From positions 16,383 to 49,404 of IMG/VR virus record IMGVR_UViG_3300030106_008108: a stretch of DNA of 33,022 nt; one strand, given 5' to 3'. The position numbers and the translations under genes were made by a program. This stretch comes from a virus. Each line of letters begins with the position of its first letter. The first letter of the stretch is position 1. Shown here piece by piece: positions 7,726 to 33,022 of this stretch. The notes under the pieces were generated by a model. The model was not told where the DNA came from and did no database searches. It was given only the letters and a program-made list of their open reading frames with translations.

Positions 7726-8445
7726 ATGACCCCAGTTTTTAAGTCAGATTATTCTATAGGCAAAAGCATTTTAACCATAGATAATATTATAAATCTTTAC
7801 AAAAAAAGTAATCAAAAATTTTTATTACTAGTTGAAGATTCAATGACTGGTTTTGTTAAAGCTCACAACCTAACAAAACAAAATAATATACACCTTGTTT
7901 TTGGATTGAGAATTTCTTGTTGTAATGATATCAACAAACAGACTGATAATTCAGAGCATAAAATTGTAATTTTGGCAAAAAATGATAAAGGATGTAAGTT
8001 ATTAAATAAAATATACTCTTTTGCTCATATAGGTAATGAAGGTAATATTGATTTTAATTATTTGAATGAAATATGGGACGACAATAGTTTGCAACTAGTA
8101 ATACCTTTTTATGATTCATTTATATATCAAAACCAGCTGCACTTAAAAAACTGCATACCTAATTTCAATAAAATTAAACCTATTTTTTGGTTAGAAAAAA
8201 ATAATTTACCTTTTGATCATATTGTATCTGAAGCTGTTTTTGATTACTCAAAAGATAAATACGATACAGAATTAGTAAAAAGTATTTTATATGAGAAAAA
8301 AAGTGAAGCAGAGGCTTTACAAACTTATAAAATAATATGTGGGAGAAAGTTTGGTAGACCATCTACTTTAAGTTGCCCTAATTTAAATCATTTTGGCAGT
8401 AATGAATTTTGTTTTGATAGTTTTAAGGAGTACGTAAATGAATGA
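7726..8445 (+). CDS. PHP-domain part of split DNA polymerase III alpha (degenerate)
   Basis: The 239 residues match the N-terminal PHP domain of bacterial DnaE. SDYSIGKSIL (8-17) corresponds to the HSDYS start motif, LLLVEDSMTGFVKAH to the 'ITD..n..G...F' strand, HLVFGLRI to 'KPIIGaef', and IVILAKNDKGCKLLNKIYS to 'lvLLaknxxGyxnLxxL'. The histidines that bind metal in active PHP domains are missing at the start (Lys replaces His before SDYS, and no HxH precedes it), so it is probably structural, as in E. coli DnaE. The gene ends where DnaE passes from PHP to palm. It overlaps the exonuclease gene by 8 bases and is preceded by a sigma70-like promoter. Confidence 0.78.
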   Translation: MTPVFKSDYSIGKSILTIDNIINLYKKSNQKFLLLVEDSMTGFVKAHNLTKQNNIHLVFGLRISCCNDINKQTDNSEHKIVILAKNDKGCKLLNKIYSFAHIGNEGNIDFNYLNEIWDDNSLQLVIPFYDSFIYQNQLHLKNCIPNFNKIKPIFWLEKNNLPFDHIVSEAVFDYSKDKYDTELVKSILYEKKSEAEALQTYKIICGRKFGRPSTLSCPNLNHFGSNEFCFDSFKEYVNE

Positions 8446-9070
8446 CACTTTGTTAAGATTTAATAAAAATCAAAAGTATATTGTTTTTGATACTGAGACC
8501 GAAGGTTTAAATTTAATTAATTCAAGACCTTGGCAAATAGCTTGGCTCGTAGTAAAGGGCGATAAAATTCAAGAAAAGCATGACAAATTTATCCATTGGC
8601 CTAATATAAATGTTTCTGATGGAGCCGCTAAAGTTACAGGTTTTTCAGAAAAAAAATATTACTCAAAAGCTCTAGCTCCAAATCAAGTTTGGGATGAGTT
8701 TTGCAAACACCTTTACGATAAAGATACATTAATCGTGGGTCAAAATTTACTTGGGTTCGATGTATACATGCTTGATATATGGCGTAGAGCCATGGGTAAA
8801 AAATTAGATCAGAGCTATATTAAAAGAATTATAGATACTAAAGCTTTAGCGACTGCCATAGCTAAAAATATTCCATACAACGACGATAAATTTATTAATT
8901 GGCAATATAGACTTTTAAATTATAAAGAGAGAGGTTTAAAAACATCTCAAGGTTTCCTATTGAAGCATTATAATATAAAACATGATCCTAAAAAGCTTCA
9001 TGATGCACTTTATGATATAGAGATGAATTTCAAAATATTTAAAAAGCAACTTTTTGACTTAGAGATATGA
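8438..9070 (+). CDS. DnaQ-type 3'-5' proofreading exonuclease (DEDDh)
   Basis: This is the likely proofreading subunit for the polymerase encoded on both sides of it. Of 210 residues, the four exonuclease motifs are intact: FDTETEG (D18, E20), GQNLLGFD (D108), and the final HDALYD with H188 and D193, so it is a DEDDh enzyme like E. coli epsilon. A perfect AAGGAG ribosome site lies 7 bases before the ATG and fixes the start. The last residues, QLFDLEI, resemble a sliding-clamp-binding peptide, but the match to the usual QLxLF is partial. It overlaps the PHP gene by 8 bases and the polymerase gene by 4 (ATGA), so the three are made together. Confidence 0.9.
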   Translation: MNDTLLRFNKNQKYIVFDTETEGLNLINSRPWQIAWLVVKGDKIQEKHDKFIHWPNINVSDGAAKVTGFSEKKYYSKALAPNQVWDEFCKHLYDKDTLIVGQNLLGFDVYMLDIWRRAMGKKLDQSYIKRIIDTKALATAIAKNIPYNDDKFINWQYRLLNYKERGLKTSQGFLLKHYNIKHDPKKLHDALYDIEMNFKIFKKQLFDLEI

Positions 9071-11637
9071 TATTATCTGATTATAAGACTTATGAAACAC
9101 CATTTCCAGTTGGTGTAAAACTACCAGAGATCAAGATAGAAAAAAAATATTATGACGAGGTTGCTTGTAAAGACCTGGAAGATAACTATCAGTTTTTGAG
9201 AAAGCTTTGTTTCAACAGGTTAAAACAAAAAGGTATACATCAATTACAAAATGCTCAAGTTTACTACGACAGGTTAAAAGAGGAGTTGCAAATTTTTGAA
9301 GATCTTGGGTTTATTGATTATGTTCTTTTAAACTGGGATATAATAAATTTTTGTGTGCAAAATGATATTCCTGTTGGTGCTGGTAGAGGTAGTGCTGCTG
9401 GGTCTTTAGTTCTATATGTAATCGGAGTTACAGATATAGACCCCATAGAGCATGATTTATTTTTTGAAAGATTTGTTTCTAAAAGTAGGGCTAAAAAAAT
9501 AGAACACAAAGGTGAAATATATTTAGACGGCAGTCTATTAGCTGATGTTGATAATGATATTTCTTATGATCGCAGATCTGAGGTTATAGAATATATAGAA
9601 AAAAAATTTAAAGGTAGGACTTCTAAGATTTTAACTTTAAATACTTTAAGTAGTAAGCTCTGCATGAAAGAGTGTTGTAAAATTGTTGAAGAGCTTTCAG
9701 AAGCAGACGTTAATATAATTAGTGAAAGCATACCGAAAACTTTTGGTAAGGTTGCTAGCTTGGATAAAGCATGTGATGAAAGTGAAACATTTAAAAAGCA
9801 TGCAGATGATCATTCAAAAGCTTTTTCTATAGCAAAAAAACTAGAAGGCTTAAATAAAAACACAGGAGTTCACCCATCAGGTATTGCAATATCATTTTTT
9901 GATCTTGAAGACATCATGCCTTTACAATTAACTAATGACGATTCTTTAGTGTCGGCTTACGACATGAATGATGTATCTAGTTTAACAGTAAAGTTTGATA
10001 TATTAGGTTTAAGAACTTTATCAGTGGTTAATGATGTCTGTAAACAGCTTGATATAAATGTAAAGGATATAAATCCTCATGATCCGTCGATATATGCAGC
10101 TTTATCATGTTTGCGCTGCCCTCAAGGATTATTTCAAATTGAAGCTGATACAAACTATAAAGTCTGTCGCACTATATGCCCTAAAAGTTTGGAGGAGTTA
10201 TCTGCTGTTGTCGCTATAGCAAGACCTGGAGCTTTAGAGTTCTTAGATTATTATGCAGCATATGCCAAAACAGGTGATTTTTCATCTGTCCATGAGTTTT
10301 TTGACGACATTTTAAGTTACACAGGGGGGATACCACTCTACCAAGAGCAGCTCATGAAAATGGCTGTAAAGGTAGGATTTAGTCTAGATGAATCTGAACA
10401 GCTAAGAAGAATTATTGGCAAGAAAAAAGTTGATCAGATGCCAGCTTGGAAAGCTAAGATAACACAAAAAATAAAGGACAATAATTTAGATCCTAAAATT
10501 GGTGAAGTCTTATGGAAAGTGGCTGAAGACTCAGCTAATTACTCTTTCAATAAGTCGCACTCAATAAGTTACGCCTATCTAGCTGCAATAACAATTTATT
10601 TAAAGTTTAATTATCCTAAAGAGTTCTTTTTAAGTCTTTTAAAATATGCAAAATATGAGCCAAACTCTCATGAAGAAATAGCAAAAATAACTCAAGAACT
10701 CTCATCATTTAATATTAAACTTTTACCACCTGATCTAAATAAATCTGATATAGATTTTAAGATAGAGGGTTCAAACATAAGATACGGATTGAATTCTATC
10801 AAAGGAGTTTCAGATAAAGTTTTAGAGTCGTTACTAAATTTTAGAGAGGAGAGTTTTTCTAATAAGTATGATATTTTTGTCTCTGCTAAACAGGCTGGAA
10901 TGAATATAGGGATACTATCAGCCTTAATACAAGCTGGATTATTAGATTCTTTTGTTTGTTCAAATAGATGCCGCTTAGTTCTTGAAGCTCAAACATTTAA
11001 TATATTAACTGATAGAGAAAAGCGTAATTTTATAGAGCTTGGATCAACATATGATTTTGATATCTTAAATTCAGTGCATGATCAATATTCTAGCAAGTCT
11101 GTTGGTGATGACGGTAGACTAATGATGACTGAAAAAAGGTTTCAAACTTTTAAGAAAAAGTATGGACCATACAAAGATATTTATGAAATGAATAAAAAGT
11201 ATCTTAGATATGCTAATTGGTTTTTTGAAAATAAGTTGTTAGGATATAGTTACTCGCATAAACTAAAAGACATATTTGATTTGTCTCAAGACTTTATATC
11301 TGCTGAAAAAATTAAGATAGAGTCTAATGAAGAATCCCCTGCTTTTACAGATTTAAAATTTATAGGCGTGGTTACAGATTCCGTAAAAAGAACTAGCAGG
11401 AATGGTAATAAATATGTTAGATTAGATTTACAAGATGAAAGCGCACTTATAAGTGCTTTGTTTATGGATTCTGAAAGAGAGCAAAAATTAACAAATTACT
11501 TAAATTCTGGCAAAAAAATACCTAAAAAAGAGGACATTGTCATAATTAATGGTAGATTAGGAGATGATATTATATTTATTGAAAAAATGCAGTCACTAAA
11601 GGATAAAATCTACATGAAGCTATCTGAGATAAAATAG
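9067..11637 (+). CDS. dnaE: DNA polymerase III alpha, catalytic core (C family, DnaE-like, lacks PHP)
   Basis: This is the replicative polymerase. The 856 residues begin just before the palm, so the PHP domain of normal DnaE (about 1160 residues) is absent and is supplied by the separate upstream gene. Seen in order: GRGSAAGS (106-113); ADVDND (D160, D162, D164) in place of the catalytic PDFDxD; VHPSG (268-272); KFDILGLR with the third catalytic Asp (D311); the LFQIE and RPGALEF segments; LYQEQLMKMA; GKKK (451-454); NKSHSISYAYLA (495-506); a helix-hairpin-helix part near 573-595 (YGLNSIKGV); and an OB-like domain about 763-835. All three catalytic aspartates are retained, so it should be active. 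No clamp, clamp loader or SSB is encoded nearby. C-family polymerases are unusual in T4-like phages, which use a B-family enzyme. Confidence 0.94.
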   Translation: MILSDYKTYETPFPVGVKLPEIKIEKKYYDEVACKDLEDNYQFLRKLCFNRLKQKGIHQLQNAQVYYDRLKEELQIFEDLGFIDYVLLNWDIINFCVQNDIPVGAGRGSAAGSLVLYVIGVTDIDPIEHDLFFERFVSKSRAKKIEHKGEIYLDGSLLADVDNDISYDRRSEVIEYIEKKFKGRTSKILTLNTLSSKLCMKECCKIVEELSEADVNIISESIPKTFGKVASLDKACDESETFKKHADDHSKAFSIAKKLEGLNKNTGVHPSGIAISFFDLEDIMPLQLTNDDSLVSAYDMNDVSSLTVKFDILGLRTLSVVNDVCKQLDINVKDINPHDPSIYAALSCLRCPQGLFQIEADTNYKVCRTICPKSLEELSAVVAIARPGALEFLDYYAAYAKTGDFSSVHEFFDDILSYTGGIPLYQEQLMKMAVKVGFSLDESEQLRRIIGKKKVDQMPAWKAKITQKIKDNNLDPKIGEVLWKVAEDSANYSFNKSHSISYAYLAAITIYLKFNYPKEFFLSLLKYAKYEPNSHEEIAKITQELSSFNIKLLPPDLNKSDIDFKIEGSNIRYGLNSIKGVSDKVLESLLNFREESFSNKYDIFVSAKQAGMNIGILSALIQAGLLDSFVCSNRCRLVLEAQTFNILTDREKRNFIELGSTYDFDILNSVHDQYSSKSVGDDGRLMMTEKRFQTFKKKYGPYKDIYEMNKKYLRYANWFFENKLLGYSYSHKLKDIFDLSQDFISAEKIKIESNEESPAFTDLKFIGVVTDSVKRTSRNGNKYVRLDLQDESALISALFMDSEREQKLTNYLNSGKKIPKKEDIVIINGRLGDDIIFIEKMQSLKDKIYMKLSEIK

Positions 11638-11648: not shown

Positions 11649-14090
11649 ATGATGGGTTTAACAGATTTCAATTTAACTCCAAAAGCTAAAAAATGCATAA
11701 AAGATTCTAAAGCTTTTGCGCAGTCGAATAACCATAAATTGGTAAATATAAGTCATTTAATTTATGGGTGTTTAATTAATTTATCTGATAGTTGCATAGT
11801 TAAATTAAAAAGTTTTGGATTTGATCCAGACATAAAAGAATTCTTAAAGTTATTTAAAGAGTTTTGTAAAGAAAGAAAAGATTTATATGATACTGATGAA
11901 GAAGGTTGGCATGAAGAAGTGAATGAAGTAATCTTTTTTGCCAAGGACTTTTCAGATAACTTTGATAGTTATTTCATAGGAGTGGAGCACATCCTTTACG
12001 TAATTTTTGATATGGATGGAGACTTTGTAAAATTTTTAAAGAATAAAAATATTGATGTACAATATGGCAAAGAAATAATAGAAGCTCATGTTATTGAAAC
12101 AGCAATACCATCTTCAGATCAGGTTAAAAATATTTTTCATATAGAGGGTAAAAAAGTTTTCTCTTTTGAGAAAGCTGACACTAAAAAAGCTTTAAAAAGC
12201 ATAGAAATATTAGACAAATACTGTGTCAATCTAAACCATAAATTTATAACAGAAAACTCTTCAACGATTTCTTGTAGAGACTCAGAAATAAATGAATTGA
12301 TTGAAATTTTATTGAAAAAAAATAAATGTAATGCAGTGCTTATTGGCGATGCTGGCGTTGGCAAAACTGCTATAGTAGAGGGCTTAGCTCAAAAGATTGT
12401 AAATCAAAAAGTGCCGTGCCATTTAGCCTTAATGCAGATATATTCAGTTGATATTACTTCTATGCTGGCTGGCACAAAGTATCGTGGTGAGTTTGAACAA
12501 AGGTTTAAACAATTGATAGATGAAGTTTCTAAAGATGAAAATATTATACTATTTATTGATGAAATACATACTATAATTGGAGCTGGTAGCTCTGAGGGTG
12601 GTGTTGATGCGTCAAATATGTTAAAGCCAGCGTTAGCTCGTGGAAATCTAAAATGTATAGGAGCTACAACTTTTCAAGAATACAAAAAATTCTTTGAAAA
12701 AGACTCTGCGATTACAAGACGATTTGATAAAATCGTAGTTAATCAACCTAGCAAAGCTGATACTAAAAAAATAATAGTAAACACTCTAGAATACTATGAA
12801 GATTTCCATCATGTTAAGTATGAGGAAAAGGAAATAGATTTAATTTTAGATTTGTGTGAAACATTTTTAAGTAATAAGAATTTTCCAGATAAGGCTTTTG
12901 ATGTCATCGATCAAGTCGGAGCTAAAACTAAAATAAAATATTTTAAAAACTCAAATAAAGTAACTGACGCTCGCGGAACTTTTACTGATTTGATAAAAAA
13001 TCTAGATGACGGTTCAGAATTTGACGAGGTTAAATTTACTGAAATTATAAAAGATTATATAACCACAATGTCTACATTTATGAATTCAAAAGGTAAAGGT
13101 AGAAAAAGAAAAATTAGGGAAAAAGATATAATAGATGTTGTCAGTGAAAAAAGTGGTATATCACAAAAAGCCATCATGCAAAAAAAGAATATTTTCTCTA
13201 AATTTATAGAAAATATAAAATCTGAGGTTTTTGGCCAAGATGATGCATTAGAAAAAATATACAGCAATCTATCATGCGCTAAAACTGGCTTATCAGATAA
13301 AAATAAACCCTTATCAAGTTTTTTATTTATAGGTTCTACTGGAGTTGGTAAAACATTTACAGCTAAAAATATAGCTAAATACTTTTTTGGCAGTGAAAAA
13401 TCGTATATACAGCTCAATATGAGCGAATATCAAGACAAAACTAGCATAAATAAATTAATCGGCGCAAGCGCTGGTTATGTTGGTTATGATGATGGAGGTA
13501 TATTATCTGAGCATGTGAGAAACAATCCTAATTGTGTTGTTGTCTTTGATGAAATAGAAAAATGTGAACCTAAAATATTAGATATTTTATTACATTTATT
13601 AGATGAAGGATACATAACAGATAATTTGAATAGAAAAATTGATTTTAGCAACACAATAGTTGTTATGACATCAAATATAGGTCAGAGAGAAAAGCAAAAA
13701 AGAAGTATGGGATTTTTAGATGATTCTGAAAGTCCTAAAAAATTAGAAAGCTCTGCTGTAAAAAAATATTTAAGACCAGAGTTGATTTCAAGGATAGATG
13801 AGATATTAAGCTTCAATGATTTGCAGGATTCTGTTTACTTAAGTATTATTACAAAGGAAATTAAAAAGCTTAAAGAAAGATTGCAGTTAAAAGGAGTTCA
13901 CTTAAAAATAACTCCTCATGTTAAAAAATTCATTTTTAATGAAATAAAAAATAAAAAAATTCATGCAAGAGATATAAAAAGCTTTGTAAAGAAATTTATT
14001 CAATTCCCTGTGTCTAAATATATGATGGAGCATAAAGATGTAGATACTGTTGGAGTTAAGATAAAAAACAAAAGTATATGCTGCTTGTAA
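11649..14090 (+). CDS. ClpA/ClpC-type AAA+ unfoldase with ClpP-docking loop
   Basis: This 813-residue protein has the whole class I Clp layout: a helical N-domain with Clp-repeat-like sequence (about 8-150), AAA1 with Walker A GDAGVGKT (233-240), Walker B LFIDEIH (301-307) and arginine finger RRF (357-359), then AAA2 with Walker A GSTGVGKT (562-569), pore-loop GYVGYDDGG (609-617), Walker B VVVFDEIEK (630-638) and sensor 2 region. Between them in AAA2 lies MGF (687-689), aligned with IGL of E. coli ClpA, the tripeptide that docks on ClpP. It is therefore probably a protease-coupled unfoldase and not a ClpB-type disaggregase, which would also have a long middle coiled coil that is absent here. 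No ClpP gene is seen, so host ClpP is the likely partner. It follows the polymerase gene by 11 bases. Confidence 0.9.
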   Translation: MMGLTDFNLTPKAKKCIKDSKAFAQSNNHKLVNISHLIYGCLINLSDSCIVKLKSFGFDPDIKEFLKLFKEFCKERKDLYDTDEEGWHEEVNEVIFFAKDFSDNFDSYFIGVEHILYVIFDMDGDFVKFLKNKNIDVQYGKEIIEAHVIETAIPSSDQVKNIFHIEGKKVFSFEKADTKKALKSIEILDKYCVNLNHKFITENSSTISCRDSEINELIEILLKKNKCNAVLIGDAGVGKTAIVEGLAQKIVNQKVPCHLALMQIYSVDITSMLAGTKYRGEFEQRFKQLIDEVSKDENIILFIDEIHTIIGAGSSEGGVDASNMLKPALARGNLKCIGATTFQEYKKFFEKDSAITRRFDKIVVNQPSKADTKKIIVNTLEYYEDFHHVKYEEKEIDLILDLCETFLSNKNFPDKAFDVIDQVGAKTKIKYFKNSNKVTDARGTFTDLIKNLDDGSEFDEVKFTEIIKDYITTMSTFMNSKGKGRKRKIREKDIIDVVSEKSGISQKAIMQKKNIFSKFIENIKSEVFGQDDALEKIYSNLSCAKTGLSDKNKPLSSFLFIGSTGVGKTFTAKNIAKYFFGSEKSYIQLNMSEYQDKTSINKLIGASAGYVGYDDGGILSEHVRNNPNCVVVFDEIEKCEPKILDILLHLLDEGYITDNLNRKIDFSNTIVVMTSNIGQREKQKRSMGFLDDSESPKKLESSAVKKYLRPELISRIDEILSFNDLQDSVYLSIITKEIKKLKERLQLKGVHLKITPHVKKFIFNEIKNKKIHARDIKSFVKKFIQFPVSKYMMEHKDVDTVGVKIKNKSICCL

Positions 14091-14091
14091 A

Positions 14092-15144
14092 ATGAGTTTA
14101 CATTTATATAATAATAAAGCTTATGTTTTAAATACTCCAAGCTTACAAAAATCCACTAAAGAATACGTTCTCACAATTATAGATAAAATATATAGTAAGT
14201 TAAATGTTGAATCTGTAACGTTATTAGATAATGGGATCAACTATGACACTTACTCTTTAAAATGTTTAGATGGTAAATTTTATCTTTTAAAAGTATCTCT
14301 TGACCCAGAAAACATTCAGCTATCTAGAGAAAGTTTTTTTTTAAAGCAGTTAAAAAATTTTGCGTCTGCTAAATTTATATGTCTTAAAAAAGTAAAAGTG
14401 GGGGATGACATACTATGTTTATTATCTCAATTTCCTAATTGTATTAATTTAAAAGATGCTGGTAGGGGTTTTTTCTTAGAAAATGCAGATGTATTTTTTT
14501 GGACTCATAAAGCTCTAATTGAACAAATTAAACCAAAAAGATTAAAAAGCGGTTATCTTAAACAATTAACTGAACATCAAGATTTTTCGAAGAATTTTAC
14601 AGACAGAACAAAAAATTTAATAAAAGATTATACTGATTACGATAGGTTAGAAAAAATTTTATTTAGCTTACTTAATGATATTAGGAACACAGCTCCTAAT
14701 ATAAGTGATTTTAGTCCATGTTTGTCAAACATCACGATTGATTCTATATTTTTAACTAATTCATTGTTTTTTTTCGATAAGTTAGAGGACTGTTGCAAAT
14801 ATCACCCATATATAGACTTATGCGATATAATATTGAATTTAAGCTATAAAGATGACGCAAAGGAGCAAATAATATCCATGTATCGATCTAATCACAAAGA
14901 TTTTGATCAGGGAAAGTTTGATAGTTTTTTTAATTTTTGTGTTAAAAAGAAACTATTGGAATGTCTTAGTGATTACCTAAGAGAAGTATATCAATTAAGA
15001 TGCTTTAGAATAAGTAAAATAACTGATATCATGTCTGTATTTTATTCTAATTTCAAAAACTTTAAAAAGCTGCCTGTTTTTATAGATAATCAAGATTTTT
15101 TACTCAAAACAATAACTGAGCCAGTTTTAGGTGTAAAAGCGTAA
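14092..15144 (+). CDS. APH-like kinase-fold protein, probably catalytically inactive
   Basis: The N-terminal 80 residues resemble the small lobe of aminoglycoside-phosphotransferase-like kinases: a glycine-bearing strand turn (LDNGINYDTYSL, about 44-55), the lysine strand FYLLKVS and the helix with Glu (SRESFFLKQL). Later, FFFDKLEDC followed by HPYIDLCDIIL resembles the DFG-like aspartate strand and the 'DLA' helix of the family. The HGDxxxxN catalytic loop expected in front of it seems replaced by SPCLSNITID, without the His-Gly-Asp. So I read it as a kinase-fold protein that may bind a nucleotide or a partner but not phosphorylate. It sits one base after the Clp stop and may be an adaptor or substrate selector for the unfoldase; that is speculation. 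The identification rests on motif order by eye only. Confidence 0.5.
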   Translation: MSLHLYNNKAYVLNTPSLQKSTKEYVLTIIDKIYSKLNVESVTLLDNGINYDTYSLKCLDGKFYLLKVSLDPENIQLSRESFFLKQLKNFASAKFICLKKVKVGDDILCLLSQFPNCINLKDAGRGFFLENADVFFWTHKALIEQIKPKRLKSGYLKQLTEHQDFSKNFTDRTKNLIKDYTDYDRLEKILFSLLNDIRNTAPNISDFSPCLSNITIDSIFLTNSLFFFDKLEDCCKYHPYIDLCDIILNLSYKDDAKEQIISMYRSNHKDFDQGKFDSFFNFCVKKKLLECLSDYLREVYQLRCFRISKITDIMSVFYSNFKNFKKLPVFIDNQDFLLKTITEPVLGVKA

Positions 15145-21968: not shown

Positions 21969-24900
21969 TTATTGGTGAAGATCACTTTCGTCCTCAAGAG
22001 GGGGAGGTGGATCTTTTACTACTTCTAGATTTTCAACATCTTTTCTTTCGCCATAAACCACATAAAAATAATTAAGAGGTTGCGTGGTATTAGATCCTAC
22101 GCATATGTCTCCATTATAATCTATCCTATCAACGTAAATACTTTGATTAGGTCCGATTGGAGTTACATCAACAGTCATAGAATCAATATGAACTAACCCT
22201 GACCAATATTCTGGAGCTTGTATGCCAGTTTCTTGTGATTTACCTCTAAAGTAAACTCCATTTTCTGGACCCTCAAGACAAGCATGAATTAATCTTTTGT
22301 CAGATTGTGTGGGGTGCTGAATATTAAAAGATTTAACAGTAGATGAAATAGTTCCATTAACATCAAAAGTAGAACCTGGATTGTCAGTACCTATACCAAC
22401 TCTACCTGCGCTGGTGATACGCATTCTCTCCTTAGCGTTGCTTGTGCCATCCCAAGGTGAAGTAGTATTTACTGAAGTATAAAAAGCAATAACAGTTGCT
22501 TGATTGAAGCTTGAAGAGCCGCCTCCAAAACTAATGAAGTTATCACTGCTTTTACTTATTGAAGAAAATATGTTAACATCTTCCTCAGCGTTGGTGTAGT
22601 GTCTACCCAACATCCTATGCAGTTTGTCATTACTGTTTGTTGTGTTATCTGCAATTCTATATGTTCCAACAACATCTAAAGCATGGGCTGGACTGCTGTT
22701 GTTTATACCTACAGCATCTTCAGATACGTCTACATATAGTGTGTCTGTGTCTATAAAAAAATCTGAATTAGTATCAAATCCTCCTTTTAGAGTATTTCCT
22801 TGGCAAAAACGTATTTGTTGAGAAGTGGCTGAATTTAAAAAGGTTTTACCATTACCATCTTGCAATAGAGCGTATTTAGATCCTGCACTAGCAGTTACGT
22901 CGATGTGATGGAATCCAGCATGGTCATCATGACCTACGGTTCCCATACTAGCTAGGCCGATATTAGCATAACCCAGATCATGATTTGTCTCACCTTTGCT
23001 TATATCTAAACCGCTTCCAGAAATTACACCTGTAACTTGAAGCATTGTGGCAGGACTAGTTGTCCCTATACCAACATGACCATCAGTATTAATGGTAATC
23101 TGGTTAGTATTATTAGTCTGTAAATGAAATTTATTAGCTCCTTGAGTTCCTACAAATCCTTCAGTGAGAGCTTTGATATTAACTATTGCACTGTTCCCCT
23201 CTGCTCTTATCTCGGCTCCATTGCTTGTATCTTTAATTTGTAAAACTTTTCTACCAGCAGATGTTGCTTCAGGATTATCTGTTCCTATGCCGACATTGCC
23301 ATCAGAATTTATAGTCATGCGGGTTTGCCCTGCTGCTCCAAAGGATAAGTTGTTTGTGCTATGGCTATATTGCATATAACCCCTGTAAGCTGCATCCCCT
23401 ACTGTGCCATCAGCAAAATAAAGATAACCTGCATTATTATCTTGAGAGAAGATGGTCATACCTTCTGCCCCTGCGCCATCTCCAATAACCAATCTATTAG
23501 CATTAGAATGAAAATTTACCGCTCCAGTTGTACCCATGCCGATTGTGCCGCCATGATTAATTCTCATACTTTCGTACAAATCTCCTGGGCCATCAGTTCC
23601 TCTAGTAAAGAAGGATAAGCCTTGATAATCTCCATCAGCTCTTTCAGATGCCGCTGCAATCATCACTCTACGACGACCCCCATCCAACCAACTAATCGAA
23701 CCAAAGTTTTTGTTGCCGCCACCATCAGTGAATAAAACTATACTGTCCTGCCCAGTAGGATTCATTGATGCAGACCCATCCCCGTCAGAAACAGAATTAG
23801 TATTATAGATATGTAATTTTCCACTTCTTGGACTAGTTGTTCCTATACCTACAGTTCTAGTGTCCTCCTTAATGTACATTGCCGCACTAGGAGAAGCCGA
23901 AACACCTACATCAAATTGCAAGGACGCATCACTTTGTATTTTTGCTTGCGTAGCTTGATTTCTAAAATAAATGCTTCTATCGGTGCTTCCTGCACTATCC
24001 AACCTCATGTTGCCGCGCAGGTCGAGTGTGGTTCCTGGACTATTCGTTCCTATACCTACGTTACCCTCTTTGATAATCATATCAACAGTACCATCTTCAT
24101 CGTCATTATTACGAGCAAATGTTATACTGTCATTAGTTCCATCATTATCTGTATCATAATTAATATGTAGAGAGCCTTTGGCGTTTATAGAAGAAGTATT
24201 AGTGCCTAAGAAATCAATTTGTTGTCTTGATGATCCTCTTGTAGTTATTTCTACTCCATCTGCGTCATCTCTAAAAACTGCAATACTGTCTGAAATAGAG
24301 CCAGAAACTTCTAGTTTCGATGATGGAATTGAGCTTCCTACACCGACACATCCATTACCTAAAATATCAAAAACTGGGCCATTTGAATTTTTAACTTCTA
24401 AAATTTCTCTACTATCAGAAGTAGTGGCACTTTCAAGAAGTAAAACATTTCCGTTAGCTGAGGTTGATATCGTAGCAACCGCGCCAGCGCCTTCATTCCA
24501 AGCAGAGTTAACACGTAAGGTTTGTATATTTGTAGTGCTTTTTATATGTAAAGGTGCATCTGGATTATCCGTTCCTATTCCAACATTACCACCGTTGAAA
24601 TAACTCTCTCCATCGGATTCAATTACAGCTTTTGGCGTTCCTCCAGCATTATTAATCGTAAGTTGGCCAGCCTCACTTGATGCTCCAAGGTTTATAATCT
24701 GTATATTAGAACTATTAGTTCTTGAAATTGTTCCTTTTACGGTCAGTACATGTGGAGCAACATCTGTCCCTACACCAACATTACCATTTGCCAGTATTCT
24801 TATTCTTTCAGTATCATTAGTGTCGAAACGAAGGTATCCGTTTTCTCTATTAACTATTCCAGCATCACTATCTGAAACAAAAATTTCTAAACCTTTATCA

Positions 24901-27900
24901 GCAGCGTAAGTAGTTGTGCTGTTTGCTAATTGTATTAAAGCATTAGTTGAACTACTAGCGACACTCAAATTACGAGCAGCACTATTTGTCCCTATGCCGA
25001 CATTACCTCCTGTGATAAAAGATGCCGAATTATTTACTAAAGATATACTACTTCCGACATTTAATGCTGCCGCTGCTGATCCATCATCTCCTATGCTTAT
25101 ACTTGGAGCATCGCTAGTGTTTGGCGATATTTTAACCATTTCTGATTCATCAGTAGGCGCTCCACCATTATAAGTGCCGAAATAAGTATGTATAGATTTA
25201 GCTAAAAGGTAATTAGCAGAGCCATTAAGCATATTCCTATATAAGATAAGAGGAGCTAAATCACTAGCAGAACCATCACTAGGTCTAATTTGTAAAGGAG
25301 GGTTGGGTGAGTTTTTTTGAATTTCTAATGCATTTGAGGGATTAGTTGTTCCTATTCCTACATCTCTAGAAGTTTTTTTGATAGTTATCGCAGCGGTTCC
25401 TGCGCTTTTTGTCCCATCAACTATTCTAAAATCAAAACCTCCTGCCCCATAACCATAAAGTCCTGCAAACCAGTGGTTATCAAGTTCAAGTCCTTGAAAC
25501 TGACCAGCTGCTGAATCTGTCAGAAAATAAGCCCCAGCGGTTGATTTAGAAACAATACGAGAATCATTTGTTAATCTCTCAACAATCAGTCCATAAGTAT
25601 TACCAGAGCCGACTATTTGAACATCAGCCGTGCTTGAAGTTATTCCTGTATTATATAGATCTAAACGCGCTGCTGGAGAATCTGTTCCTATACCAACATT
25701 AGCAGTATCTCTATCAATCGTAATTACTTTTGTATCATTCGCAAATGTTGTGTCGCTAGTTTTATGAACTCCAATATTAAATTTGTTTGATGATCCATCA
25801 TATTGCAGAAAACCACCTTGATGGACATTTCCTTCTACCAGCCTTAACAAAGCTCCAGTTTCGTTATTGTTTATACAATGAATGCTTGCGGTGGCACTAT
25901 TATCATCACTGCTATATACAGTAAGATCGCTCAATGGAGTAGTAGTTCCTATACCAACATGACCATCAGTATTAATAGTAATTCGGTTGCTATTATTAGT
26001 CTGTAAATGAAATTTATCAGCTCCTTGAGTCCCTATAAATCCTTCAGTGAGAGCTTTGATATTAACTGTCGAGCCGTTTCCCTCTGCTCTTATTTCTGCT
26101 CCATTGCTTGTATCTTTAATTTGTAAAACTTTTCTACCAGCAGATGTTGGTGAAGGATTATCTGTTCCTATACCGACATTACCAGCATTAAAATATGAAT
26201 CTCCATTGCCAGCTATATAGTTAGTTATGGTTCCACCATTATTTCTTACTAAAACAAGACCATGACCATTGCTATCATTACCAATATTAAATGTTCTCGT
26301 CCCAGCGGCATTTTCTGAACGGAAAGTATCTCTAGCGTTAGCTTCGTTTCTTACCGCCATCACTCCCGCAGCATCGTCTGCTATTACTTCTAGTTTAAAG
26401 TTTGGATTATTAGTTCCTATACCAACTTTACCAGCAGTATCGATACGCATAAACTCCGTATCGGTGCTTCCAGCCGTTCCAAGGAATATAAACCCTCCGT
26501 TAGCAGCATTAGCTCTAGAGTAGAGATAAGTATATACTCCAGCTTTTTCTATTACACTATAATGATCTGATAAATCAGAATCTGTTAATCTTATAGTAGC
26601 TTCTGATGCAGCTATCTCTAGTTCTGCATTAGGATTAGTTGTTCCAATACCAACATTACCGTTGGTTCCGTCAATGGTTAAAGCATCATTAGTTCCAAGC
26701 GCACTACCTCTGGCAATTTTAAAATTCTTACTATGACTCTCATCAGTCCCTATCGTAAATCCAAATGTGCCATTATGAGAGAAACTGATAGATGCATCAG
26801 CAGTTGTTGTAGAGTCTATTAAAACATTTGCAGCTCTGGTATTACTTTGGTTATCAATGTGGAGGGTGTGAGTTGGACTATTTGTTCCAATACCAACACC
26901 ATCAGACGTAATTGTAAGTTCTTCTCGACCAGTGACAAAAAGCTTATGAGCTGTTACCCCATCTGCCCCTTTGGACATTTGGTAATCAGTGCTTACAAAT
27001 GAGCCATCTGCTTGACGAGTATTAATATTTAATGCTCCACCAGCAAGCTGAATATCAGTTACATTAAATGTGCTAGTTGCATCAGTTTCTTCTAAGAAAA
27101 TATTTGGGTTTGCCGCATATACATGGAGTTTAGAATTTGGACTATTTGTTCCTATGCCTACATCACCACCTGTAATGAAACTATCACCATCTGATGCAAA
27201 TCTAATATTTTCGCCAAGGCCATCATATATAGCTAATCTTCCAGCAGAAGATTCGTTATTGTTTATAGCAACTCCATTTGTATGACTAGTTTTAATATGA
27301 AAATGACCTCCACCTTGTTGCAAGACAGTGTTTCTTCCAGCAGAGCTAGTTAATGCAATTCTAGATTCGCTACCATACACATCTAGTAATTGTGTTGGAG
27401 AGGTTGTTCCTATACCTATATTATTTGTTGTAGTGTTTCCATTGTCAGTAACGTTTTGCAATGTAAGTGATGCTGCCGCATCTCCTGATACAAGATAAGG
27501 TTTTCCGTCAAGTGCGGTAATTCGATTGCCGATACCAGTACCTAAAAAGTTACCTGATCCAGAGATATTTCCAGCTACTTGAAGTTTTTCATCTAGGGGA
27601 TCACTCATTCCTATACCAACTCTAGTATTTGAATCGACGGTTATTACTTCGGCTCCATTAGTAACTATCGCAAGTCTATTGGGGCCACTTAAAGCTTTAT
27701 AACCCCAATAGTTACCTCCAGCAGTGTAAAGGTCATGAAATATAAAACCATCTGCATCACCACCAACGCCAGCTAAAACTCCAGCATCCTTAGCTTGTAT
27801 ACTACCTGCGACATCAAGTTCGTGAACAGGAGCTGAGCTTCCTATACCAACATTGCCATTGCTAAGAACCCTCATGCCTTCAATAGTCCCTGCGCTTGTC

Positions 27901-28304
27901 CCTACAAATAAAGCCAAGTGAGTTGAAGCGGATGCCCCACCATCAACAGCATACATACCTGCAAATTCCTCACCTTCATTACCTAAACTTAGACCGCCTA
28001 TAATATTGTTATTTGTGTTGCTTCCGTTACTAAAGCCAAGTTTTGCCCCAATGTTGGAGGTGGCTATAGTCTTAGTCATCGCTGTGACCGCAGAACCATC
28101 TTGCCCAACGGCTGTCGCTTTTAAATGAAGAGGACTTGTTGGATTACTTAATCCTATTCCTACATTACCACCAGTAATAAAACTATTTCCCCCATTTCCA
28201 TGCAGCCTTATTGAAGCTGAATTAAGATTAATTGCTGATCCACTAGGATCATTATAGTTAAACTCTAAAATGCCTGATTCTGGGCTTATAACAATATTAG
28301 ACAT
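21969..28304 (-). CDS. giant tail fibre/adhesin with about 24 GNVGIGTxxP repeats
   Basis: The 2111-residue protein is a chain of about two dozen units, each starting with a strand like GNVGIGTxxPxxxLxV followed by 50 to 100 residues of beta-rich, Gly/Ser/Asn/Thr-rich sequence. Such repeats are known from phage and bacterial tail-fibre-domain proteins that form long trimeric fibres. The C-terminal 135 residues form a distinct domain: SFNIQHPT, then LEGPENGVYFRG, PEYWSGLV, TVDVTPIGP and VYGERKD, then an acidic/proline tail. The classical endosialidase chaperone motif (S74) is not seen. Two repeat units are near-copies of each other (23063-23297 and 25946-26180). The ATG follows the stop of the preceding fibre gene by 9 bases. 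Codon composition is richer in G and C than the replication genes. It probably binds receptors at the host surface. Confidence 0.85.
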   Translation of the reverse strand: MSNIVISPESGILEFNYNDPSGSAINLNSASIRLHGNGGNSFITGGNVGIGLSNPTSPLHLKATAVGQDGSAVTAMTKTIATSNIGAKLGFSNGSNTNNNIIGGLSLGNEGEEFAGMYAVDGGASASTHLALFVGTSAGTIEGMRVLSNGNVGIGSSAPVHELDVAGSIQAKDAGVLAGVGGDADGFIFHDLYTAGGNYWGYKALSGPNRLAIVTNGAEVITVDSNTRVGIGMSDPLDEKLQVAGNISGSGNFLGTGIGNRITALDGKPYLVSGDAAASLTLQNVTDNGNTTTNNIGIGTTSPTQLLDVYGSESRIALTSSAGRNTVLQQGGGHFHIKTSHTNGVAINNNESSAGRLAIYDGLGENIRFASDGDSFITGGDVGIGTNSPNSKLHVYAANPNIFLEETDATSTFNVTDIQLAGGALNINTRQADGSFVSTDYQMSKGADGVTAHKLFVTGREELTITSDGVGIGTNSPTHTLHIDNQSNTRAANVLIDSTTTADASISFSHNGTFGFTIGTDESHSKNFKIARGSALGTNDALTIDGTNGNVGIGTTNPNAELEIAASEATIRLTDSDLSDHYSVIEKAGVYTYLYSRANAANGGFIFLGTAGSTDTEFMRIDTAGKVGIGTNNPNFKLEVIADDAAGVMAVRNEANARDTFRSENAAGTRTFNIGNDSNGHGLVLVRNNGGTITNYIAGNGDSYFNAGNVGIGTDNPSPTSAGRKVLQIKDTSNGAEIRAEGNGSTVNIKALTEGFIGTQGADKFHLQTNNSNRITINTDGHVGIGTTTPLSDLTVYSSDDNSATASIHCINNNETGALLRLVEGNVHQGGFLQYDGSSNKFNIGVHKTSDTTFANDTKVITIDRDTANVGIGTDSPAARLDLYNTGITSSTADVQIVGSGNTYGLIVERLTNDSRIVSKSTAGAYFLTDSAAGQFQGLELDNHWFAGLYGYGAGGFDFRIVDGTKSAGTAAITIKKTSRDVGIGTTNPSNALEIQKNSPNPPLQIRPSDGSASDLAPLILYRNMLNGSANYLLAKSIHTYFGTYNGGAPTDESEMVKISPNTSDAPSISIGDDGSAAAALNVGSSISLVNNSASFITGGNVGIGTNSAARNLSVASSSTNALIQLANSTTTYAADKGLEIFVSDSDAGIVNRENGYLRFDTNDTERIRILANGNVGVGTDVAPHVLTVKGTISRTNSSNIQIINLGASSEAGQLTINNAGGTPKAVIESDGESYFNGGNVGIGTDNPDAPLHIKSTTNIQTLRVNSAWNEGAGAVATISTSANGNVLLLESATTSDSREILEVKNSNGPVFDILGNGCVGVGSSIPSSKLEVSGSISDSIAVFRDDADGVEITTRGSSRQQIDFLGTNTSSINAKGSLHINYDTDNDGTNDSITFARNNDDEDGTVDMIIKEGNVGIGTNSPGTTLDLRGNMRLDSAGSTDRSIYFRNQATQAKIQSDASLQFDVGVSASPSAAMYIKEDTRTVGIGTTSPRSGKLHIYNTNSVSDGDGSASMNPTGQDSIVLFTDGGGNKNFGSISWLDGGRRRVMIAAASERADGDYQGLSFFTRGTDGPGDLYESMRINHGGTIGMGTTGAVNFHSNANRLVIGDGAGAEGMTIFSQDNNAGYLYFADGTVGDAAYRGYMQYSHSTNNLSFGAAGQTRMTINSDGNVGIGTDNPEATSAGRKVLQIKDTSNGAEIRAEGNSAIVNIKALTEGFVGTQGANKFHLQTNNTNQITINTDGHVGIGTTSPATMLQVTGVISGSGLDISKGETNHDLGYANIGLASMGTVGHDDHAGFHHIDVTASAGSKYALLQDGNGKTFLNSATSQQIRFCQGNTLKGGFDTNSDFFIDTDTLYVDVSEDAVGINNSSPAHALDVVGTYRIADNTTNSNDKLHRMLGRHYTNAEEDVNIFSSISKSSDNFISFGGGSSSFNQATVIAFYTSVNTTSPWDGTSNAKERMRITSAGRVGIGTDNPGSTFDVNGTISSTVKSFNIQHPTQSDKRLIHACLEGPENGVYFRGKSQETGIQAPEYWSGLVHIDSMTVDVTPIGPNQSIYVDRIDYNGDICVGSNTTQPLNYFYVVYGERKDVENLEVVKDPPPPLEDESDLHQ
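23063..23297 (-). repeat. intragenic duplication in the second fibre gene, copy A
   Basis: About 235 bases match 25946-26180 (offset 2883) at roughly nine of ten positions by eye. Both encode the segment with RKVLQIKDTSNGAEIRAEG, then VNIKALTEGF, then FHLQTNN and TINTDGHVGIGTT. The level of identity is far above that between other repeat units, so the copy is recent or is kept alike by gene conversion. Confidence 0.85.
25946..26180 (-). repeat. intragenic duplication in the second fibre gene, copy B
   Basis: This is the partner of 23063-23297. Differences are mostly single-base changes at third positions plus short clusters that change GNGSTVN to GNSAIVN, FIGTQGAD to FVGTQGAN and NNSNRI to NNTNQI. 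Both copies start and end within the repeat signature encoding the VGIGT strand. Confidence 0.85.
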
Positions 28305-28313
28305 CTTATTTTA

Positions 28314-31300
28314 TTACACTTTTAATGGTTCAATTTCTAACCTATCTATATCTTTACGTTCTCCGTAAATTACATAATCAAAAGAACCCTCGATCCCTCC
28401 AATTTTTATTAATTTATTTGATTTTTTAATTATAAATAAGTCTTGTTTTTTCCCAATTGGGGTTAGATTTACAGTTATTGAGTCCTCATAGACAAGATTT
28501 GACCAGTATTCTGGGAGCTTTATTGTTTCTTTATCTGTTGTCCCTCTGACATAAACTCCGTTTTCTGGACCCTCTAAAGATGCGTACTGGAGTTTTTTGT
28601 TTTCTTTTGTTGGGTGATCAATAAGGAAAGATTTACTTGTTGCTGAGAAGTGGCCGATAACATCAAGAGCATTGCTTGGACTGGTTGTCCCTATACCAAC
28701 ATTACCTGCCGATGTTATTCTAATTTTTTCTGAACCCGCTGTGCTTATGGATAAAGAATCATCTGCATGTCGATAGTCAAATGCGCCTCTTTGTTCAGCA
28801 TCAGAATCTCCAAAAAATAAACTAGATCTACCTGCATTTCCAGCTAAAATAGCCATGCTCGCATAATTACCTGCGCCCTGAGTCATGTCTACGGTAAGCA
28901 TAGTACCTCCACCTAATGATGGTGCGCTATCTCCTCCTCCAACTGAAAGAAGTGCAGCAGGACTATCTGTTCCTATGCCAACTTTACCGTCTTTTGCAAT
29001 ATGTAATCTGACATTAGATCCGCTAGTGTGTAAATTATATGTTCCAGGAGAAGAATTGGCACTTCCTGCATAAAATCTAAAACCGTTAATTAACTGGGTT
29101 CCTGCACTACCAAAATCTATGTAATTACTATTAGCCGTAATGAGAGGTCTTGCATAACTAGTAGAGAAAGCGCCAAGCAATCCTCTACCAGCAGTACTCA
29201 TGAATATAGAGCCAGCCTGATTATCTGTTCCAGCCCAACTATTGTCACCTTCGACTAGCATAGACCCTTGGACATCAAATTTTGCATCTGGAGTATCAGT
29301 TCCTATTCCAACGTTACCCTCTGCTGTGAATCTTGCTACTTCATCCGCAGCAGCATTGCCACTTGTAGTAATTCTTACATAATCTCCTGCTATTTTTAAT
29401 GGATGAGCAGAGGATGTGTCAAAATCAGAGGCGAGTATTCTAGCTTCATTTCCAACAGATGATTGAATTTGAATAGCGTCATTATTAGAAGTGGTTCTTA
29501 TTCTTACATAACCATCATTAACTTGCACTGCATCTGATCCATCTCCAACAACGTGAAGACTTGAGACTGGACTAGTTGTTCCTATACCGAGACGGTTATT
29601 AGTTAAATCTACAGTTAAATTACCAGTGCTAGCTCCTTTGTTGGGTCCAATAGAAAATCTATTATTTTCAGCAGAAAGAATACCAGAAGTATCATCATCT
29701 TGTATTAGAATACTAGCATTGTTGTCATTTGATTTAAAATGAGCAAGGATATCAGAATTACTTTCTACATTTAAATTGTAAGTTAAAGTATCTGTTCCTA
29801 TGCCAACATTATTAGTAAATCTTCCATAATCTATGTAAGAACTACCATATCTAACACTAGATGTTCCAAGGTTTGCTCCACCATCTGTTACAGGTCGAAG
29901 ATCAGCATAATGGCGACCATCATAATATTTATCAATATAATATTGACCACCATAAGATAAATTATTACCAGCAGCATAATCTGCTGCATAAAAATTATTG
30001 ATTCTAAAATAATTTCCCGCTCTAGCTAAACTATATCTAATTCCACTAATCGCGTCCGATCCGCCAGAGTTTGTGCCGACTCTAGAAATGACTGCTGTTT
30101 CGGCGTTATCTGATAAATCTATAAGCTGTTGCCAGCCGCCAGTTCTAGCAACTTCTATTTTTACATGAGTAGCTCTAAAAGAATTAGAACCAAAAATAAC
30201 TCCCACTTGTGCTCCATAATCTAAAGTTACTAAATTTTGAAACATTAACTCAACAACACCAGTCCCTGTTGCATTGGTTCCATTTGGGCCAGAGTCAGTA
30301 TACCAACTGCCTACTGTGTGGTTGTTAGCTTGAAATGCCCTATCAAAATCTCCAGTTTCTGCTTCATTACTATAAGTATAAGACCCCTCACTGCCACCTC
30401 TAGTCTTAAATATTCCAGAGGTGCTCATAGTAACACCGTCCCATTCAGTAAATCCAGCTAGATCGTTAAGGACTAAAGCATTTTGAAAACCATAATCCTC
30501 TGTAGATGTGTTGGCAAAATAACCCTCTAAAGTTGTTGCTCGCCCTGGGTTATTGCCCATAAATCCTTTTATTCCTCCACCTTCTGGATCTTGAGATCTT
30601 ATAGTTCCAGCAACATCTAAAGCGTAAGAAGGACTAGTATCGTTAATACCAACATAACCGTCAGTTTTTGTGATAACAAGCTTTGGACTTGATAAGGCAT
30701 CATTAGAATCATCGAACGCAAAGTAAGTTTGCCCATTAGGTATACCTAATCGCCAAGCAGATGCTCCTGCTCGCTCAAATTTTTGGTTAACCACGCCTCC
30801 ACCAACGTTAGTTAAGTGCAAGGTCGCATCAACACTGTCTTCATTGATACCAACTCTATCGTTAGATGCATCTACATATAATGTGTCAGTATCAACAGCT
30901 AATGCTCCTGCGCTAGTGTTTGTTATTGATATGGCATTTGTTGTAGTTGCTCCATTGTCAGTAACATCTTGCAGTGATGCTGCCGCATCTCCTGATAAAA
31001 GGTATGGGACACCGTTATTAGTAATTCTATTATCAACTCCAGTTCCCAAAAAACTATTCGATCCAGAGACAACTCCTTCTACATGAAGTTTTACACCTGC
31101 CACACAATCGGTAGTTCCTATACCAACTGGGGTGTCATTTTCTCCATAAGGAGCTAATTGAATTTCTCCTACATTTCCTCCATTGTATGGCACGATTTGG
31201 AACTTACCTGCACTTAATGTTCTCTGATAAACATAATTGGTAGCGCTTGAACCCCAAGATAAAGCTGAACTTGAAGATCCATTGGCATCTCGTAATGAAA

Positions 31301-33022
31301 GTTTTGCGGTTCCCCCAGGAGTAGTAGCAGCAGTTGTTCCTATGCCGACATTACCTGCTGAAGTGACGTTAAGATTGTCAGAGGATATGCTTTCATTAAA
31401 TCCAAGACCCATAACATCATTAGAAGCATTATGGTTTATAAAAACACTATCAGTGTTATCTTTTATTCTTATAAAAGCGTCATTATCTTCAGATTCAAAT
31501 CTAGCGACTTCTTCATTAGCTCCACAATTAACGTGGAGTCTACATGCTGGATCTCCAGTTCCAATTCCAACTTCCTGGTTATCACCAATAAATAGTTGAG
31601 GGTCTCCACTTCCTCTTCCAGCACCCTTTGGTTTAGTGAAGAATAATAAATTTGCGCCATTTAAAGTATTATTGCTATGTTCAGCTACCCTAGATTCAAT
31701 AGCCGCAACCGTGTGGTGCGCGTCTGCCTGTCCACTTGAGTGGATAAAGTAAACACCACCCATAATTTCTCCATTTCCAGATTCATTACTCTGTAATAGT
31801 ATATTACCCCTTCCAGTCGTTTGATTACCAATCGTTAGTGTCGTGCTTTCTCCCTCTGTAATTGGATTAAAGTATTGTGCGTTGGTATTTATTTCTGCTA
31901 AAGGATTAGTAGTTCCTACACCGACATTGCCATCTCCTCGCACATGAAGATAACTCGATCCAGCTAAACTACTTACTTCGAAGGAAACATCCGAAGAGTT
32001 TGAGCCACCATCTACCTTTAAGCCATAGTTGGCTCCAGCAGTAGCTTCTGTATTAGTTATTCTAGCAACATAGTCGCCGTCTTGTTCTGCTTTAACGTGC
32101 AGCTTGTGTGTTGGATTAGTTGTTCCTATGCCGACATTACCAGCACTTGTAAAGCCATGTATTTCTTGTGCAACCCCTGCGCTGTTGTAACATTGAAGCT
32201 CCAACAGCCCATTATTGTTTTGGAGCTGGAAGGCTCCATATGAATTATTAAAAATCGCCCCGTCATTTCCATTTCTATTGAAACCAATCATACCCATATA
32301 TTGGGCCGTTGATTTCATCATCGCATAATCTCCTATCCCAATATCTCCTCCAACATCAAGTTTGAAGTCTGGAGAATTTGTTCCTATTCCAACATCACCT
32401 CCATTAAAGTAACTATCTCCATTAGAATGAATTAAAGCTTTTTCTACTCCTCCATGATTTAGAACTGATACCTGACCAGCCTCACTTGCTACTTGAAGGT
32501 TTACAACTTGTATACCATTGCTATTAAGCCTTGAAATTGTCCCTTTTACGGAAAGTTTGTGTGGAGTAGAGTCTGTCCCTATAGCAACATTACCATTACC
32601 ACTGACAGTTATTCTGTCTTCGAGATTTGTAAAATCATGCAATCTAAATGAATTGCTACTGTCATAAACACACCAGCCGTAAGAACCTTGGCTGTTTGTT
32701 GCTTTAAATACTCCTGATCCATTAGTGCCTTCTACTTCAACTCTTGCTGTTCCCGCATTGTATACATGTAATTTTTCTTGTGGATTATCTGTCCCTACTC
32801 CTACATTGTCACCATTAGAATTATTTAAAGATAATTTACCATCGTGCTGTAATGTTATTTCTGCTCCTCCATTACCCGCGTAGGTTATAAAGAAATCACT
32901 ATCTGCATCATCGCTAGCAAAATATTGGTTAACAGTTTCAGTAGAATTTGTAAACCTTAATCCTAAAGTGCTTGAAGTAGCACCAGCTATGTGGAGTTTA
33001 GATGACGGGCTTGGTGTTCCTA
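28314..33022 (-). CDS. giant tail fibre/adhesin with GNVGIGTxxP repeats (5' end beyond the window)
   Basis: The frame is open from the stop at 28314-28316 to the right edge, at least 1568 residues. A TTG at 32640-32642 might be taken as a start, but the same frame continues upstream with clear repeat sequence (KLHVYNAGTARVEVEGTNG, and before it a GDNVGVGTDNP unit), so the gene begins outside the window. About 16 repeat units are visible. A stretch of about 270 residues (29810-30630) lacks the repeats. The C-terminal domain (SFLIDHPT, LEGPENGVYVRG, PEYWSNLV, TVNLTPIGK, VIYGERKD) is a clear relative of that of the next gene. It ends 9 bases before the second fibre gene. It is probably the other fibre or adhesin of the virion, or another section of the same fibre. 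Confidence 0.85.
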   Translation of the reverse strand, partial: GTPSPSSKLHIAGATSSTLGLRFTNSTETVNQYFASDDADSDFFITYAGNGGAEITLQHDGKLSLNNSNGDNVGVGTDNPQEKLHVYNAGTARVEVEGTNGSGVFKATNSQGSYGWCVYDSSNSFRLHDFTNLEDRITVSGNGNVAIGTDSTPHKLSVKGTISRLNSNGIQVVNLQVASEAGQVSVLNHGGVEKALIHSNGDSYFNGGDVGIGTNSPDFKLDVGGDIGIGDYAMMKSTAQYMGMIGFNRNGNDGAIFNNSYGAFQLQNNNGLLELQCYNSAGVAQEIHGFTSAGNVGIGTTNPTHKLHVKAEQDGDYVARITNTEATAGANYGLKVDGGSNSSDVSFEVSSLAGSSYLHVRGDGNVGVGTTNPLAEINTNAQYFNPITEGESTTLTIGNQTTGRGNILLQSNESGNGEIMGGVYFIHSSGQADAHHTVAAIESRVAEHSNNTLNGANLLFFTKPKGAGRGSGDPQLFIGDNQEVGIGTGDPACRLHVNCGANEEVARFESEDNDAFIRIKDNTDSVFINHNASNDVMGLGFNESISSDNLNVTSAGNVGIGTTAATTPGGTAKLSLRDANGSSSSALSWGSSATNYVYQRTLSAGKFQIVPYNGGNVGEIQLAPYGENDTPVGIGTTDCVAGVKLHVEGVVSGSNSFLGTGVDNRITNNGVPYLLSGDAAASLQDVTDNGATTTNAISITNTSAGALAVDTDTLYVDASNDRVGINEDSVDATLHLTNVGGGVVNQKFERAGASAWRLGIPNGQTYFAFDDSNDALSSPKLVITKTDGYVGINDTSPSYALDVAGTIRSQDPEGGGIKGFMGNNPGRATTLEGYFANTSTEDYGFQNALVLNDLAGFTEWDGVTMSTSGIFKTRGGSEGSYTYSNEAETGDFDRAFQANNHTVGSWYTDSGPNGTNATGTGVVELMFQNLVTLDYGAQVGVIFGSNSFRATHVKIEVARTGGWQQLIDLSDNAETAVISRVGTNSGGSDAISGIRYSLARAGNYFRINNFYAADYAAGNNLSYGGQYYIDKYYDGRHYADLRPVTDGGANLGTSSVRYGSSYIDYGRFTNNVGIGTDTLTYNLNVESNSDILAHFKSNDNNASILIQDDDTSGILSAENNRFSIGPNKGASTGNLTVDLTNNRLGIGTTSPVSSLHVVGDGSDAVQVNDGYVRIRTTSNNDAIQIQSSVGNEARILASDFDTSSAHPLKIAGDYVRITTSGNAAADEVARFTAEGNVGIGTDTPDAKFDVQGSMLVEGDNSWAGTDNQAGSIFMSTAGRGLLGAFSTSYARPLITANSNYIDFGSAGTQLINGFRFYAGSANSSPGTYNLHTSGSNVRLHIAKDGKVGIGTDSPAALLSVGGGDSAPSLGGGTMLTVDMTQGAGNYASMAILAGNAGRSSLFFGDSDAEQRGAFDYRHADDSLSISTAGSEKIRITSAGNVGIGTTSPSNALDVIGHFSATSKSFLIDHPTKENKKLQYASLEGPENGVYVRGTTDKETIKLPEYWSNLVYEDSITVNLTPIGKKQDLFIIKKSNKLIKIGGIEGSFDYVIYGERKDIDRLEIEPLKV
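29810..30630 (-). other. repeat-free insertion domain in the first fibre protein
   Basis: Between two repeat units (one reading GYVGINDTSPSYALDV, the next NNVGIGTDTLTYNLNV) about 270 residues contain no GIGT motif. They are richer in Trp, Tyr and Phe, with segments such as FTEWDGVTMSTSG, GSWYTDSGPNGT, GVIFGSNSFRATHVKIEV and GQYYIDKYYDGRHYAD. The composition suggests a folded globular beta domain held on the fibre, possibly a receptor-binding or carbohydrate-binding module. No known fold is recognised by eye. Confidence 0.55.

Follow-up and report, generated by a model that had tools for sequence, protein, structure and literature searches.

A phage-encoded ClpA/ClpC-type unfoldase that keeps the ClpP-docking tripeptide beside a replicative polymerase gene

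Several components of the Clp system have been described in phages with large genomes. Atu_ph07 is reported to encode ClpX, ClpA, ClpB, ClpP and ClpS, and ClpA is conserved in RaK2-like phages (PMC6102473). A jumbo-phage survey deals with phage ClpP, ClpS proteins that bring targets to host ClpAP, and ClpA and ClpX as translocases or assembly helpers (PMC7824862), and Clp proteases have also been noted in huge phages (PMC9723584). Phage ClpA, ClpX, ClpP and ClpS have therefore already been published, as has the idea that a phage supplies targets to the Clp machinery of its host (PMC6102473, PMC7824862). The published docking motif is (L/I/V)-G-(F/L), carried on flexible loops that enter hydrophobic H-pockets of ClpP (PMC8745299); the IGL loops of ClpA dock in ClpP clefts (PMC7707817). 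Neither the phrase "phage-encoded Clp" nor a biochemical test of a phage Clp ATPase was found in the literature searched. Against this background of published phage Clp genes and the host-Clp idea, the gene described here adds a new lineage to a known type. What is new is the lineage itself, its fixation beside the polymerase and the evidence for selection on its docking loop. A second phage Clp clade of ClpC-like origin that also carries the motif, and two clp-linked possible adaptors, are new as well.

The window, the whole 33,022-nucleotide stretch of DNA that was analysed, comes from a large marine phage and comprises positions 16383-49404 of a viral record 49,404 bases long (IMGVR_UViG_3300030106_008108). 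An ORF on its plus strand at 11649-14090 encodes 813 amino acids with no interruption from start to stop. This protein (phage Clp; gene, clp) has Pfam matches to AAA, AAA_2, AAA_lid_9 and ClpB_D2-small, and it belongs to the phage Hsp100 family PHROG 4871, annotated "ATP-dependent protease", which it matches over the full profile (aa 8-809, E 1e-209). The closest solved structures by sequence are those of ClpC, ClpB, ClpE and ClpA, the best phmmer match in the PDB being Staphylococcus aureus ClpC (E 2.4e-136, over aa 9-800). The product is a predicted two-ring, ATP-driven unfoldase of the ClpA/ClpC type, and its features and immediate neighbours are as follows.

9067-11637, plus strand: phage DNA polymerase III alpha (Pfam), ending 11 nt before the clp start codon
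11649-14090, plus strand: ClpA/ClpC-type phage Hsp100 unfoldase, 813 aa, PHROG 4871 (ORF, Pfam, PHROGs, PDB phmmer, AlphaFold2)
11670-12101, plus strand: N-terminal domain, aa 8-151, Clp_N-like (AlphaFold2, two runs of four helices)
12345-12368, plus strand: D1 Walker A, GDAGVGKT, aa 233-240 (sequence, invariant in relatives)
12468-12503, plus strand: D1 pore loop, AGTKYRGEFEQR, aa 274-285 (sequence)
12543-12572, plus strand: D1 Walker B, IILFIDEIHT, aa 299-308, with FIDEIHT at 302-308 (sequence)
12717-12722, plus strand: D1 arginine finger pair, R357/R358 (invariant)
12954-13088, plus strand: helical hairpin inserted in D1 at the M-domain position, aa 436-480 (AlphaFold2 helices 436-453 and 460-480)
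13332-13355, plus strand: D2 Walker A, GSTGVGKT, aa 562-569 (sequence)
13464-13499, plus strand: D2 pore loop, ASAGYVGYDDGG, aa 606-617 (sequence)
13536-13565, plus strand: D2 Walker B, VVVFDEIEKC, aa 630-639, with FDEIEK at 633-638 (sequence)
13674-13733, plus strand: predicted ClpP-docking loop, aa 676-695 (low AlphaFold2 pLDDT; gap-free match to the ClpA IGL loop)
13707-13715, plus strand: docking tripeptide MGF, aa 687-689 (lineage conservation)
13791-13793, plus strand: D2 arginine finger, R715 (invariant)
13965-13970, plus strand: D2 sensor-2, A773-R774, at the position of the ClpA GAR motif (invariant; hhalign to ClpA)
14092-15144, plus strand: 350-aa APH-fold protein, probable pseudokinase (AlphaFold2, Foldseek), directly downstream of clp

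The key motor residues of both D1 and D2 are invariant across 24 aligned relatives, in agreement with a previous sequence-only reading in which both AAA modules were said to have intact Walker motifs and an arginine finger. An AlphaFold2 model for which 24 sequences of the lineage were used (mean pLDDT 76.9, pTM 0.47) aligned best in VIA-align with ClpA in the ClpAP structure 6w20 (Z 33.5, rmsd 5.8, 546 residues aligned), with ClpC a close second and ClpB and Hsp104 also listed. The modelled helices of the N-domain fall at 11-26, 34-43, 47-55 and 62-75, and at 89-104, 112-122, 125-132 and 137-151; the match of this domain to Pfam Clp_N (E 0.0083) is under the Pfam cut-off, and the hhalign alignment with ClpA, which begins at aa 183, does not include it. 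Beyond that point D1 and D2 are collinear with those of E. coli ClpA, at 38% identity over 556 columns, but phage Clp has an extra D1 helical hairpin that E. coli ClpA lacks. This hairpin is shorter than in ClpB, poorly conserved, and lost in one sub-lineage (L089-L097).

In a tree of 48 rows made from D1 and D2, the root of which is drawn at the midpoint only, the window protein falls among 21 rows that form a phage-only group (support 95/95). A split (100/97) separates this group and ClpA from ClpC, ClpB and ClpV, and the branch order on the ClpA side is without resolution. ClpC from S. aureus and Bacillus is the best PDB sequence match and has a D1 insert of similar size. However, phage Clp lies outside the ClpC group, and its own insert is the poorly conserved hairpin that can be lost; its identification as ClpC was rejected because the group containing ClpC and ClpB does not include it. 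A second phage clade (L099-L126), with proteins of about 670 aa and hardly any N-domain, keeps [VI]GF and nests beside ClpC from Flavobacteriaceae and Saprospiraceae bins (Bacteroidota; 100/98). Since two separately placed phage clades both carry the motif, at least two phage lineages of separate origin keep a ClpP-docking motif.

The ClpA-like proteins of RaK2 and Atu_ph07 likewise have two AAA modules, and each carries a tripeptide in the docking loop (IGV and IGF, respectively). They differ from phage Clp in being only about 35% identical to it, in forming a separate branch, and in having an M region of about 10 aa rather than about 61. The genomic setting is also different: the RaK2 gene is found among virion structural genes and the Atu_ph07 gene beside dnaJ, and neither is behind a polymerase gene. 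Other phage tripeptides are IGY in SCTP-2 and MGL in R16F, the latter slightly shifted in the alignment.

The MGF triplet at 13707-13715 had previously been proposed to stand where E. coli ClpA has IGL. The coordinates are exact: hhalign matches TSNIGQREKQKRSMGFLDD to TTNAGVRETERKSIGLIHQ with no gap, and MGF falls on IGL. In the AlphaFold2 model the docking loop sits between the sensor-1 strand (669-675) and a helix at 696-707, so that MGF lies inside it by both methods, and pLDDT is below 50 at 682-688, which fits the expectation for a flexible docking loop. A tripeptide of the form [LIVM]G[FL] is thus present in the D2 docking loop. Methionine in the first place is a mild departure from the canonical I, L or V; some relatives have V or L there, and MGF or MGI is found in some bacterial Clp proteins.

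Relatives were drawn from viral-contig scans, and include 37 close ones (47-98% identity) as well as more distant ones; the lineage set comprises 79 sequences, three of which come from contigs that had been placed in bins of bacteria or archaea. All 79 keep [M/V/L]GF at this place. The first residue is M, V or L in 69, 5 and 5 sequences, and the glycine and phenylalanine are each present in 79/79. G688 is encoded by GGT, GGC, GGA and GGG (27, 24, 18 and 10 sequences) and F689 by TTT and TTC (50 and 29), with no replacement at either. Such synonymous variation without replacement indicates that the two residues are maintained as the DNA sequence drifts; the ten positions after MGF (690-699) are free to change and rank with the most variable in D2. 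Judged from these alignments, the docking loop is under strong purifying selection. Triplets of the form [ILVM]G[FLY] are common enough by chance, with a mean of 1.8 per shuffle of the Clp protein, and the 813-aa sequence has two others (MGL at aa 2-4 and VGY at 611); the chance expectation in a 25-aa loop is about 0.06. A chance origin for MGF is ruled out by its position in the loop, the gap-free match to ClpA and the 79/79 conservation.

In the same alignments the tripeptide is missing from ClpB- and ClpV-type controls, whose M regions span 108-146 aa, versus 61 here. These comparisons bear on the idea that phage Clp is a ClpB-like disaggregase protecting proteins during infection, which could draw on the shared Hsp100 fold and the presence of ClpB and Hsp104 in the VIA-align list. 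With a 61-aa M region against about 129 aa, a docking tripeptide and a place in the tree apart from ClpB, such a role is extremely unlikely. Identification as ClpB or Hsp104 was likewise rejected, E. coli ClpB having the 129-aa M region and no tripeptide.

That clp lies beside replication genes, as had been read from the window, is confirmed by the polymerase, helicase and primase block directly upstream. The order is RecA/UvsX-like, HNH-like endonuclease, small ORF, DnaB helicase and primase, followed by PD-(D/E)XK nuclease, PHP protein, DnaQ exonuclease, Pol III alpha and Clp, and it is kept in relatives down to 37% Clp identity. Pol III alpha adjoins clp in 77/78 lineage loci, the remaining locus beginning inside clp, and the computed gap between the two genes is 9-22 nt in 75 of these 77 and larger in two. 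The fixed synteny, as an association only, favours a role for Clp in or alongside replication. Pol III alpha is itself split into three consecutive ORFs at 7726-11637 (PHP domain, DnaQ-like exonuclease and alpha core), and relatives have the same ORF order. A promoter and terminator scan was not informative (89 promoter-like sites, 72.6 expected).

The strongest rival reading is that phage Clp is a remodelling chaperone independent of ClpP, which pulls replication complexes apart and releases them, the loop being kept for some other contact. The fixed place in a replication block would suit such a role, and ClpX is known to remodel phage nucleoprotein complexes without proteolysis, for instance on the Mu transposase. 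Translocase and assembly roles have also been suggested for jumbo-phage ClpA and ClpX by Iyer et al. (PMC7824862). However, a motor working without ClpP would be expected to let the tripeptide decay, as in the ClpB- and ClpV-type controls that lack it, and here it is invariant; this reading is considered unlikely. A part in virion assembly or capsid maturation, the latter raised in the sequence-only reading, has a parallel in the RaK2 ClpA-like gene among virion structural genes. It found no support in the present lineage, in which clp is in the replication block with no adjoining head genes in every relative inspected, and it is very improbable.

Elsewhere in the window, two giant ORFs on the minus strand (21969-32642; 2111 and 1442 aa) have NVGIGT..SP..L.V repeats and similar C-terminal ends, and look like tail-fibre proteins. 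The first 16 kb of the record (L038:1868-13954) appear by eye to be dense with ORFs resembling glycosyltransferases, epimerases, sugar isomerases and kinases.

The partner protease was sought as PF00574, for which bacterial control genomes give a positive signal. The phage's own record gave no ClpP match, and neither did 37 close records (about 1.48 Mb in total) or 35 further lineage records, so that the search proposed earlier, run on the own record and 72 others, returned none. As all of these viral records are fragments, the absence is suggestive only, and a phage ClpP could lie outside them. A partnership with a phage-encoded ClpP or other phage peptidase beyond these contigs would be in keeping with the ClpP genes of some jumbo phages (PMC7824862, PMC6102473) and with a 226-aa ClpP frame in one record of the distant second clade (G073). 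It is rather improbable, given that none of the 73 lineage records, several of them 70-112 kb long, has such a gene. ClpS, the partner of E. coli ClpA, was not found in 38 phage records, all incomplete. ClpP is near-universal in bacteria, and together with the lack of a ClpP gene in the lineage records this makes recruitment of host ClpP the most economical reading.

Read directly from the sequences are an intact motor, a docking loop under selection, a fixed place in the replication block and no ClpP gene in the available records. In the reading that we favour, phage Clp probably docks on and recruits host ClpP, which would degrade proteins chosen by the phage. Phage Clp would assemble as a hexamer, its N-domain and pore loops would grip substrates, and six MGF loops would dock the hexamer on the host ClpP barrel. 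Host ClpP would then degrade the chosen proteins in competition with the host's own Clp ATPases. The substrates would probably be related to replication, through turnover of the replisome or an initiator, or through early removal of host factors. Of the original proposal that the phage redirects host ClpP, the assignment of the docking loop has held (hhalign, 79/79), and the binding itself is predicted.

Two neighbours could act as Clp adaptors. The 350-aa protein has an aminoglycoside/choline-kinase fold (AlphaFold2 pLDDT 88; Foldseek match to APH(9)-Ia, E 4.1e-10), and its fast-evolving gene is linked with clp among the relatives. In these proteins HGN or HGx mostly stands in place of the catalytic HGD, which the window copy lacks, and because the HGD Asp is lost in most copies the protein is probably a pseudokinase. 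The other neighbour is a conserved 74-aa protein (GRFFGLYT..NAQ..ET..V.VYDRN; for example, L007:12458-12682) with no confident family match. Its gene starts about 10 nt past the clp stop codon in 60/75 relatives, and it is absent from the window and the window's own sub-lineage. It is possible, though doubtful, that Clp works with the APH-fold pseudokinase-like protein and, in most relatives, also with the 74-aa protein as a module for targeted degradation that is specific to the phage and linked to its replisome; both partners would select substrates and host ClpP would destroy them.

Assignment of a host from bins was rejected. The matches in Flavobacteriaceae, Verrucomicrobiales, Lokiarchaeota and Saprospiraceae bins (L039, L040, L041 and L042) are mutually discordant, carry the phage synteny, and are apparently viral contigs that ended up in these bins. 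Shine-Dalgarno-like 4-mers show no enrichment before genes (3/19 window gene starts, against a 16% background). In Bacteroidota and their phages such motifs are not enriched, and the result would agree with a Bacteroidota host without being proof of one.

With MGF invariant and the gene so closely linked to the polymerase, a clear and inexpensive test is possible, namely ClpP binding with or without the tripeptide. Should phage Clp indeed dock on host ClpP, then marine phages of a widespread and apparently uncultured group would steer the main regulated protease of their hosts, and would do so with a motor of their own rather than a small adaptor.
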